This document shows positions 49,804-53,412 of a stretch of 64,000 bases of DNA, in pieces. The stretch is taken from positions 1-64,000 of the forward strand of contig JAHDID010000024.1 of NCBI GenBank assembly GCA_020630975.1. The letters run 5' to 3'. A program made the translations under genes and the position numbers. The notes below the pieces were generated by a model. It was not told the DNA's origin and searched no databases. It saw only the letters and a program-made list of their open reading frames with translations. This DNA comes from Verrucomicrobiota bacterium. Lineage in GTDB: Bacteria; Verrucomicrobiota; Verrucomicrobiia; Verrucomicrobiales; DEV007. The stretch's first letter is position 1. Every line of letters begins with the position of its first letter.

Positions 49804-52800
49804 TTAGGCGCTAGCTAGAGGATCGACTTTGGCTTGCTCGGTATCTAGGACGGCGCGGCGGAGGTTGGTTCCGCTGCGGCGGGCCCACCAGAGCACGATC
49901 GGAGATGCGACGAAGATCGATGAGTAGGTACCGATCATAACACCGATGATGAGGGCCAATGCGAAGTTGCGCATGCCTGGACCACCGAAGAGGAATAGCA
50001 CCACGACGATGATCAACGTGGTCGCTGATGTCAGGATGGTTCGGGCCAGTGTGGCGTTCAGGCAGTAGTTCATGATGTCCTTCACATTGCCTCGCTTGGT
50101 CGCCAGACCTTCGCGCACTCGGTCGAATACCACGATGGTATCGTTGATCGAGTAACCTGCGATCGTGAGTAGCGCACCGACGGTGATCAGTGAAAACTCC
50201 TGGCCGAGCAGGGTGAGGATACCGGCTGTGATGATGAGATCGTGGAAAAGCGCTGCGATCGCACCGAGGGCGAAGGCAAACTCGAAACGAATCGTGACGT
50301 AGAACAGGATCGCTACCAAACCAACGAGGAGAGCTATGCCTGAAGAGATCAGCATTGATTTGCCGATCTGAGATCCGACTGAGTTGACGGTGGTCGACTC
50401 CATGGCGATACCGAGTTTTTCAGACAGCTGCTCTTGCACGACGCCTGCTTCATTATCTGGCACACGCACGAGGAAGAAAGATCCCTCACCACCGACTGGA
50501 GTCTGCTTCTGCACGATAGGCAGAGCTGTCAGATCGGCACCTTTGAGTGCTTCCTCGATCTTGGCGCTAGTCAGGTCAGATGATGCCTGGATGGTCACCG
50601 AGTCACCGCCCTTCAGCTCGACTCCGCGCGGATCCTTGAATGGCACAGCGATGAGAGAGGCGATGACTAGGACGATGGAGATAAACGCAGCTTTCTTACG
50701 CTTGCCGAGGAAGTCGATGGCTTTCTCAGGGATGATGTTGAGGAAGCCGAGCTTCTTCAGGAAGGAAGCGGTCGCCCAGCCAAAGCAGGCGCGGGTCACG
50801 ATGAGTGCAGAGAAAAGCGAGGCAACGATACCGATGATCAGGGTGATGGCGAAGCCCTTGACCGTGCCTGTTGCCAGGAAGTAAAGGATCAGCGCAGTGA
50901 TCAGCGTGGTGATATTCGCATCCATGATCGCAGAGAATGCCTTCTCGTAAGCGGTATCGATGGCAGCCTTGAGCGACTTGCCAGCCTTCAGCTCCTCGCG
51001 CAGGCGCTCGTAGATGAGCACGTTGGCATCGATAGCGACACCGATGGTCAGAATGATACCAGCGATACCAGGCAGTGTCAGTGTGAAGCGGAATAGAGCC
51101 AGAGCACCGAAGATGATGACGATATTCAGGATAAGACCGATCAGTGCGATGGCACCAGCGACATTGTAGTAAATCAGGATGAAGACCAGTGTCACGGCCA
51201 GACCTGCGATACCAGCCATCACGCCCTGCTTGACGGTGACGGCACCCATGGATGGCGAAATGTAGTTGGAGTGAGCGATCTCGATCGGGTTCTCCAGCGG
51301 GTTGTTCAGCGCAGCGACTAGCGCCTTAGCTTCTTCCTGAGTAAAGTCACCGGTGATCGAGCAGCCCATGGAGAATGGCTCGTTGATGCGTGGCGCAGAG
51401 ATCACCTCGTTGTCCATGATGATCGCCAGCTGGCGGCCTTGATTCTCCAGAGTCAGGGGCCCCATGATGCCGGAGCCTTTGGTGGTGAAGTCGACCACGA
51501 TGGAGTGACCATCCTGACCGAAACGGTAGGCAGCCTTGCTGACCTCTTTACCCGACATATCCTTCACGATTTTGACCAGCTCGTAGCGGATAGGGGCACC
51601 CTCTGCCTTTTCCTCGTCGGTCTGGGCGTAGGGGAGTGCCTCGTAGCCGGGCTCGACGTGAGCGTCGTTTGCCACCATTTGGGCGAGATACATGCTACCC
51701 TCGTGAACCACGCTGAATTCCAGCTTGGCGACTTTTTGGATATCTTCCTCCATCTGCTTGAGCGCCTCGGGGCCGACACCTGGCACCTGTAGGAAGACGC
51801 CGTCCTTACCCGATGGGGCGAGGATGACGTCGCCAGTACCGAGAGAGTTGATACGCTTGTTGAGCACTTTGATGACCTGCTGCTGGGTCTCGGGAGTGAT
51901 CTCGCGGCCCTGGACAGGCTTGATCTTGATCTCCATGGAGACACCGCCCTCTAGCTCGATGCCCTTCTCGATGCCGTATTCGTTGAAGAAGAAAGCACTC
52001 AGACCAGCGACGACGAGCGCCAGGATCGAGCCGACTAGACGGCGGCGATTGGCCTGCTCGGAGACGAAATACCAGATAAACAGTGCGAGTAGGAAGATAC
52101 CCAGCACGAAAATCATATTAGGATCGACCGAAGTCGCTCCACCAGCTGCGTCGCCAGCGTCGGTGAGCTTCTCGGCGATGCTGCCTACGGCACCATCGAC
52201 AGCCTCGGTAGCGGCCTCTACAGTTTCACCTGCTTTGTCGGCTACGGCTTCGACAGCCTCGCCGGTTTTCTCAGCGGCAGCCTCGACAGCTTCGCCAGTC
52301 TTTTCAGCGACTTCACCAGTCTTCTCAGCTACGGCCTTGGTGGCCTCGCCTGCTTTGTCGGCCACAGCCTCGACGGCTTCACCGGTCTTTTCAGCGGCGG
52401 CTTCGACGGCTTCGGTAGTTTTCTCAGTCGCAGCTTTGGCGGTATCGGCAGCCTTGTCGGCCACTGCGCTTACGGCTTCGCCTGTCTTCTCGGTGGCGGC
52501 TTTGGCGGTGTCGGTGGCTTTCTCAGCGGCGGCGCTTACAGCCTCGCCGGTTTTCTCGGCAGCAGCCTCGACTGCTTCCCCCGTCTTTTCTGTAGCAGCC
52601 TTGGCAGTTTCAGTCGCCTTGTCAGCGGCAGCAGTCACGGCTTCACCGGTTTTTTCGGTGGCGGCTTTCGCGGCTTCGGTCGCTTTGTCTGCGGCTGAGC
52701 TCACGGCCTCGCCAGTCTTCTCGGCTGCGGCCTTTACGGCTTCTCCAGCTTTGTTGGCGCTATCTGCGCTGAACTGAACGGCATCGGATGCCACTGTGGT

Positions 52801-52890
52801 CACAGCTTCGGTTGCAGATTTAGCTTTGTCGGCGACAGCCTCGGCGGCATTAGTGACCGCATCTGTGGCGGTGTTAGTCTCGGCTTGCAT
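49804..52890 (-). CDS. secDF: SecDF fusion protein with LEA-like 11-mer repeat extension
   Basis: 1028 residues; the proton-driven SecDF subunit that helps pull proteins across the inner membrane. SecD part: VPGVGPEALKQ and GVAIDANVLIYERLREEL (TM4-5 region). SecF part: GYSINDTIVVFDRVRE. Both are diagnostic RND-type segments, and fused SecDF is usual in Verrucomicrobia. The N-terminus is not: residues about 55-226 are some fifteen 11-residue units such as AAEKTGEAVEA and AADKATETAKA (one unit has a 7-residue insertion), like LEA group 3/apolipoprotein amphipathic helices. A hydrophobic helix (about 259-276, FVLGIFLLALFIWYF) then leads via SEQANRRR to the first SecD helix, which by the positive-inside rule would place the repeats outside. 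Upstream is yajC, 147 bp away, with the paired 16-bp element in between. Start ATG 52890. Confidence 0.96.
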   Translation of the reverse strand: MQAETNTATDAVTNAAEAVADKAKSATEAVTTVASDAVQFSADSANKAGEAVKAAAEKTGEAVSSAADKATEAAKAATEKTGEAVTAAADKATETAKAATEKTGEAVEAAAEKTGEAVSAAAEKATDTAKAATEKTGEAVSAVADKAADTAKAATEKTTEAVEAAAEKTGEAVEAVADKAGEATKAVAEKTGEVAEKTGEAVEAAAEKTGEAVEAVADKAGETVEAATEAVDGAVGSIAEKLTDAGDAAGGATSVDPNMIFVLGIFLLALFIWYFVSEQANRRRLVGSILALVVAGLSAFFFNEYGIEKGIELEGGVSMEIKIKPVQGREITPETQQQVIKVLNKRINSLGTGDVILAPSGKDGVFLQVPGVGPEALKQMEEDIQKVAKLEFSVVHEGSMYLAQMVANDAHVEPGYEALPYAQTDEEKAEGAPIRYELVKIVKDMSGKEVSKAAYRFGQDGHSIVVDFTTKGSGIMGPLTLENQGRQLAIIMDNEVISAPRINEPFSMGCSITGDFTQEEAKALVAALNNPLENPIEIAHSNYISPSMGAVTVKQGVMAGIAGLAVTLVFILIYYNVAGAIALIGLILNIVIIFGALALFRFTLTLPGIAGIILTIGVAIDANVLIYERLREELKAGKSLKAAIDTAYEKAFSAIMDANITTLITALILYFLATGTVKGFAITLIIGIVASLFSALIVTRACFGWATASFLKKLGFLNIIPEKAIDFLGKRKKAAFISIVLVIASLIAVPFKDPRGVELKGGDSVTIQASSDLTSAKIEEALKGADLTALPIVQKQTPVGGEGSFFLVRVPDNEAGVVQEQLSEKLGIAMESTTVNSVGSQIGKSMLISSGIALLVGLVAILFYVTIRFEFAFALGAIAALFHDLIITAGILTLLGQEFSLITVGALLTIAGYSINDTIVVFDRVREGLATKRGNVKDIMNYCLNATLARTILTSATTLIIVVVLFLFGGPGMRNFALALIIGVMIGTYSSIFVASPIVLWWARRSGTNLRRAVLDTEQAKVDPLASA

Positions 52891-53037: not shown

Positions 53038-53412
53038 TTAGTCTTCGCTGGACTCCTCTTCAGTTTCCTCAGCTTCTTCTTCTTTCTTACCCTTGGCCTC
53101 GGTGACTGTGGCGATGGATGAGCGGTCGAATTTGATGCTCACGCCGTCGTCGACTTTCACAGTGACAGTCGACTTAGTCAGACCGGTGACGATGCCGTGG
53201 ATACCGCCTGTGGTGACGACTCGGTCGTTCTTGCCCAGGCTGTTACGCATTTCATCAGCTTTCTTCTGCTGCTGGCGCTGAGGGCGGATGAGTAGGAAGT
53301 AGAAGATACCGATCATGGCGACGATCGGCAGAAAGCTCATAAGCGGATTTCCTCCTCCTGCAGCAGGAGCTCCTTCTTGGGCGAGCAGGACAAAAGCGTG
53401 TGGTGTGGTCAT
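53038..53412 (-). CDS. yajC: Preprotein translocase subunit YajC
   Basis: 124 residues. YajC is a small inner-membrane partner of SecDF. One transmembrane helix (about 26-43, FLPIVAMIGIFYFLLI) is followed by the signature RPQRQQQKKADEMRNSLGKND and the conserved GGIHGIVTGL beta segment. The acidic C-terminal tail (EEEAEETEEESSED) is longer than in Escherichia coli. Gene order yajC-secDF is the conserved arrangement. Start ATG 53412 lacks a clear Shine-Dalgarno. Confidence 0.96.
   Translation of the reverse strand: MTTPHAFVLLAQEGAPAAGGGNPLMSFLPIVAMIGIFYFLLIRPQRQQQKKADEMRNSLGKNDRVVTTGGIHGIVTGLTKSTVTVKVDDGVSIKFDRSSIATVTEAKGKKEEEAEETEEESSED

Follow-up and report, generated by a model that had tools for sequence, protein, structure and literature searches.

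SecDF is a widely conserved component of the bacterial export machinery, with a core membrane part of the RND type and proton-driven enhancement of translocation as its hallmark activity. The stretch of DNA analysed here (the window: 64,000 nucleotides of contig JAHDID010000024.1, from the Verrucomicrobiota assembly GCA_020630975.1) contains a secDF gene in which a long series of 11-residue repeats precedes the membrane protein proper. The original prediction, made from the sequence alone, had proposed a repeat array of the LEA or apolipoprotein type, lying outside the inner membrane, where it could act as a chaperone-like or lipid-surface module. The questions raised by this locus are whether the array is a genuine part of the protein and what a core translocation machine might do with it. 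The features discussed below are as follows.

49804..52890, minus strand: SecDF fusion protein (TIGR01129 and TIGR00966; fold match to 5xap/3aqp)
52756..52890, minus strand: N-terminal lead-in, residues 1-45 (MQAETNTATDA...), rich in Ala, Asp and Thr; most orthologues in the genus have an M[QP]xQ start
52207..52755, minus strand: the repeat array, about 17 units of eleven residues each, spanning residues 46-228 (autocorrelation, helical angle, synonymous saturation)
52123..52206, minus strand: residues 229-256, where the array degenerates and a linker leads to TM0 (from the translation; low-confidence in the AF2 model)
52060..52122, minus strand: residues 257-277, the predicted extra transmembrane helix TM0 (also present in other SecDFs of the order, where it is conserved; AF2 helix 257-276, pLDDT 83-92)
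52039..52059, minus strand: residues 278-284, EQANRRR, a basic loop predicted to be cytoplasmic (almost all of the SecDFs compared have a basic loop here)
49804..51963, minus strand: canonical SecDF core after TM1 (P1 domain, TM2-TM12), residues 310-1028 (Pfam SecD_1st, SecDF_P1_head, SecD_SecF_C)
53038..53412, minus strand: yajC, the upstream neighbour of secDF (PF02699, 102 bits)

The SecDF gene and its surroundings

The gene is a single open frame for 1028 amino acids that begins with an ATG at 52890 and runs without stop or frameshift. As had been claimed, its product is a genuine SecDF: it scores 388.7 bits against the curated equivalog model TIGR01129 (cutoff 244.4) and 336.5 against TIGR00966 (cutoff 160), and the best structural matches of its AF2 model in Foldseek are the Thermus SecDF entries 5xap (E 2.1e-45) and 3aqp (E 6.4e-39). 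It is the only full-length SecDF copy found by a search of its own genome. The protein shares with Thermus SecDF, and with SecD-SecF, the core domains, the fold, the RND-type membrane part and the yajC neighbour, but the solved Thermus proteins (3AQP, 5XAP) have neither TM0 nor the putatively periplasmic tail of about 256 residues. The normal SecDF portion of the window protein starts only at about residue 285.

The yajC gene adjoins secDF in most of the relatives fetched. In most of the YajC proteins, in the window (53038-53412) and among the genes of loci L005-L132, the N-terminus contains the short motif (I/L)LA(Q/E), and a comparable MNILAQ opens some of the SecDF tails (L114, L115); a shared N-tail feature is possible. 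Derivation of TM0 from a fused YajC was considered and rejected, the hhalign probability being 3.6 and about equal to that of a decoy helix, TM2, at 3.1. Elsewhere in the window, three successive giant open reading frames of 5148, 4176 and 2179 codons occupy 9480-44859 on the plus strand, each with a LEPR- or LES-like motif close to the N-terminus and an exported look.

Structure of the array

The repeat is plain in the translated sequence. Residue identity within the array is 0.46, 0.58 and 0.49 at lags of 11, 22 and 33 residues, against 0.19 for shuffled sequence (z 10.5, 14.3 and 10.2), and the units alternate in type, for example EKTGEAVxAAA and DKATETAKAAT. The array had been described as about fifteen 11-mers spanning residues 55-226, which is essentially right; the fuller analysis, with z of 10-14, gives about 17 units over residues 46-228, with the register shifting once, by 7 residues, at about residues 193-199. 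Among the in-register units listed, Lys at position 2 and Glu or Asp at position 5 are each found in 14 of 14, and weakly hydrophobic residues take positions 3, 6, 7, 10 and 11. At the DNA level the tandem repeat is weak (66- and 99-nt periods with 71-77% matches), because synonymous sites are saturated.

The helical geometry attributed to the array, that of LEA and apolipoprotein-type 11-mers, is borne out by the lag 11/22 periodicity and by an angle of 98.5 degrees per residue, that of an 11/3 helix, with a moment that stays coherent over about 148 residues. The mean 18-residue hydrophobic moment is 0.31, compared with 0.14 for shuffles. On a helical wheel, acidic positions 1 and 5 fall at the centre of the polar face and are flanked by K2 and by K8, the latter present in about half of the units, an arrangement that is class-A-like as projected from the sequence. 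The hydrophobic face consists of Ala, Val and Thr only, the mean hydrophobicity is 0.03 and the net charge is -26. When AF2 is run with an alignment, its confidence in the array is low; from the single sequence it predicts helices at 2-133 and 138-252 with pLDDT of about 65-80, although AF2 tends to over-predict helices in low-complexity sequence of this kind. A PDB sequence search with the array returned only designed proteins and composition matches, none of them significant.

The array has LEA-like geometry, but the curated LEA_4 profile (PF02987) does not admit it to the family: it scores 16.2 bits where the cutoff is 51.1. Group-3 LEA proteins are typically disordered in water, helical on drying and induced by stress. 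The window array has their 11-residue Ala/Glu/Lys units, class-A-like amphipathic wheel and hydrophilic character, and differs from them in falling below the family cutoff, in being net acidic and in its fusion to a membrane translocase. With the 11-mer helices of the Apolipoprotein A1/A4/E and synuclein type it shares the 11/3 periodicity, but it is far less hydrophobic and strongly acidic, and it reaches 36 bits against an apolipoprotein cutoff of 90. The Phasin_2 profile is matched at 25.7 bits (cutoff 24.9), over several stretches of repetitive sequence, and this match is lost on shuffling; indeed, two shuffled arrays lost all Pfam matches. A search of the genome itself with the Apolipoprotein family (E 0.001) found nothing, and the profile matches are therefore marginal and dependent on the search.

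Age and reality of the array

The codons of the array speak to its history. Array units use the same codon for the same residue at a frequency of 0.35-0.40, with 0.42-0.44 expected by chance, and yet they retain 47-58% residue identity. Synonymous saturation combined with this level of identity argues that selection maintains the 11-mer amino-acid pattern, and the pN/pS ratio within the array points the same way: it is 0.33 at the in-phase lag of 22 and 0.72-1.09 when the comparison is out of phase. The core of the SecDF of the nearest relative (L005), which is 77% identical to that of the window, is nearly saturated in the comparison, with 45% same codons against 38% expected, and the array units are probably about as old as the split from L005, or older. 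Recent DNA slippage is excluded as the origin of the array by the synonymous saturation; it applies instead to the Pro-Ala tails of some relatives, in which 62-79% of codons are the same against about 38% expected.

These figures, drawn from the coding sequence, are hard to reconcile with an array that is purely neutral or untranslated. An annotation artefact, with the true start at Met258 and the array never translated, would explain why a methionine stands just before TM0 and why Met1 lacks a clear Shine-Dalgarno sequence. It is nevertheless extremely improbable, since the array is under protein-level constraint and both tails and starts are kept in the genus. The original prediction had named orthologues starting right before residue 255 as the sign of a start-site error; L005 instead has a 98-residue tail and no methionine just before TM0. 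With similar starts and tails across the genus and with selection at the protein level, that error can be set aside.

Membrane topology

The extra helix and the SEQANRRR loop noted in the original prediction were confirmed. They are not peculiar to this protein: SecDFs throughout the order, and in some further lineages of the class, have TM0 followed by a basic loop. Since the canonical first SecD helix runs in-to-out, TM0 must cross the membrane in the opposite sense, which agrees with the basic loop. What precedes TM0 is most likely periplasmic, outside the inner membrane as had been predicted from the positive-inside rule, because several features of the compared sequences converge: the basic loop follows TM0; a SecDF of the same family (L122) has, in one open frame, a lipoprotein signal peptide with lipobox, about 135 residues and then TM0; in two others (L117, L048) TM0 is preceded by one further transmembrane helix, and positive residues stand at the N-terminus or close to it; and the tails of the genus have a net acidic charge in 27 of 28 cases, which is what translocated N-tails should show. 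The domain of about 135 residues ahead of TM0 in L122 (2302-2796, minus strand, genome G113) has no significant Pfam match. The L048 protein (genome G035) carries, besides its additional N-terminal helix, more than 100 inserted residues that separate TM1 from the P1 domain.

SecDF tails and repeat lipoproteins in relatives

In every genus member whose N-terminus could be read, SecDF starts with a long tail, 67-258 residues when complete. The 98-residue tail of L005 contains no Pro and shows a weaker 22-residue periodicity (z 4.4) at the same angle of 98 degrees. Outside the genus, tails of about 90-165 residues are also present in three genera from the same family (g16, g17 and g20), and other family members have 3-12 residues before TM0, or other additions; in many relatives the tail is missing. 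A tree requires at least 3 changes of the long-extension state, this being a quick tree with no bootstrap and with incomplete rows coded by hand. Composition turns over as well: Pro makes up 0% of the tail in the window species and L005 and 14-27% in most of another clade, and further Pro-Ala-rich tails are found in g16 and g17. Two members of another genus (L119, L120) have Pro-Ala SecDF tails, in L119 with degenerate tandem repeats (KPEATAPAVV). The original prediction had asked whether the repeat is lineage-specific: among the species sampled, the strong LEA/class-A-like 11-mer array is confined to the window species, and the tail itself extends through the genus and into some sister genera. 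By this comparison, the window tail is one species' version of a fast-changing SecDF tail of the genus and some related genera.

Similar repeats occur in lipoproteins. Searches of the same genome found one further protein with such an array (L002:133-2265, minus strand, contig C120), a lipoprotein in which the 11-mers lie between the lipobox and a PQQ-type beta-propeller; they found no standalone repeat lipoprotein there. Small lipoproteins made up almost entirely of LEA-like repeats (L082-L109) form a family matched in 25 of 34 genus genomes. They carry signal peptides, and some end in Pro-Ala repeats; their spread across the genus argues that exported LEA-like proteins are ordinary there. 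A comparable case elsewhere is BilRI of Aggregatibacter, an LEA-like, disordered, exported outer-membrane protein that is not a SecDF extension (PMC8096337). Pro-rich SecDF tails (L015, L018, L023-L029) tend to go with Pro-Ala-ended lipoproteins (L088, L093, L099, L103), with a Spearman coefficient of 0.80 for Pro content (n 17) that is uncorrected for phylogeny. It looks as if each lineage has its own habitual style of periplasmic linker, which the tails follow.

What the tail may do

Our preferred reading, to which we give a probability of about 0.45, is that the array is an extended periplasmic spacer on SecDF with a mechanical job. TM0 would be inserted N-out/C-in, with the basic loop in the cytoplasm and the remaining SecDF topology as usual, and the tail would be held beside the translocon exit as an extended, mostly helical spacer of about 30 nm if straight (210 residues of helix measure about 31 nm). 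Such an extended, highly charged, non-sticky arm would reach into or across the periplasm, and could determine how far the translocon lies from the cell wall, the outer membrane or neighbouring factors. The Pro-Ala-rich and Ala-Glu-Lys-rich tails that swap among related species, chemically unlike, would be physically alike; by estimate, about 100 residues of polyproline-type chain give a reach similar to that of the 31 nm helix. Pro-rich and helical spacers interchange in TonB and TolA, where helices need more residues per reach (PMC12204202), and the periplasmic domains of SecDF contact BAM in E. coli (PMC7695460); these precedents make a periplasmic spacer or arm the most economical reading. 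We infer both the extended helical shape and the spacer function, and the periplasmic side more strongly.

The likeness to domain II of TolA and TonB lies in a long helical or Pro-rich spacer of interchangeable composition, anchored in the inner membrane. The window tail differs in its reversed polarity, its attachment to SecDF and its free N-terminal tip; those force transducers have a conserved C-terminal docking domain, which the window SecDF lacks, and Pfam scans of the window SecDF gave no TolA/TonB family match. The tail perhaps works like these spacers without being one of them. Against a spacer function, the tip is a free N-terminus with no docking domain or known partner. Reach is not conserved, because the 98-residue, Pro-free tail of L005 would extend only about 15 nm as a helix, and 258 residues is long for N-tail translocation.

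LEA 11-mers protect proteins, and an acidic LEA-like tail might act as a chaperone-like shield, associating loosely with chains as they leave the translocon and stopping their aggregation or backsliding. The position of the tail beside the SecDF P1 domain, the giant exported-looking proteins encoded in the window and the geometry shared with group-3 LEA proteins, minimal motifs of which protect E. coli from desiccation (PMC8670023), are consistent with this; we nonetheless consider it rather unlikely, as orthologous tails are Pro-Ala-rich and without amphipathic helices, and the LEA_4 profile yields 16 of the 51 bits of its cutoff. Those Pro-Ala tails bear also on the lipid-surface module that had been suggested, here an amphipathic helix like those of apolipoproteins, synucleins or phasins, which would lie beside SecDF on the inner membrane's outer leaflet. 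The class-A-like wheel, with Lys at 2 and in about half of units 8 flanking acidic 1 and 5, would suit it, as would the 36-bit apolipoprotein score and the Phasin_2 score just over its cutoff. The Ala/Val/Thr face, the near-zero hydrophobicity and the charge of -26 do not, and a computed, sequence-only lipid-binding discriminant averages -0.28 and peaks at 0.34, with nothing above its threshold of 0.68; a lipid-surface role is disfavoured and seems very unlikely.

The array could alternatively form a hendecad coiled coil, through which SecDF would oligomerise or associate with LEA-like lipoproteins. Hydrophobic positions 3, 6, 7 and 10 have the hendecad a/d/e/h spacing, the stripe is coherent over about 148 residues and the genus lipoproteins have the same repeats, but with core residues as small as Ala, Thr and Val, and with the searches of the same genome having found no standalone lipoprotein, this is highly improbable. 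Finally, the N-out end of TM0 might tolerate nearly anything, such that repeats expand and drift there without function. The great variability of tail sequence, length and composition, the absence of the tail from many relatives and the recent slippage in Pro-Ala tails (0.62-0.79 against about 0.38) would all fit an effectively neutral extension. Drift, however, would have erased a pattern that the window array has kept over synonymous saturation, and no genus member whose N-terminus could be read has lost its tail, so we regard this explanation, too, as unlikely.

Implications

The N-terminal repeat tail of this SecDF is real, unusual and constrained, and it is apparently undescribed: the claim that no SecD or SecDF with such an extension was known stands, in that no description of one was found in the open-licence literature. 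On the spacer reading, some Verrucomicrobiota SecDFs might carry an arm that spans the periplasm and connects the inner-membrane translocon with the cell wall or with the outer-membrane assembly machinery, low-complexity sequences of interchangeable kinds having been recruited repeatedly to build it, in effect a TolA/TonB-like reach added to Sec; in this extended form the proposal is speculative and quite unlikely. The window protein also shows that an LEA-like repeat can serve a core membrane machine as one of its constrained modules. Together with its relatives it forms a natural series at one SecDF site (no tail, a Pro-Ala tail, an LEA-like helical array and a lipoprotein domain), and this series offers ready-made variants with which to probe how the translocon and the remainder of the envelope are coupled.
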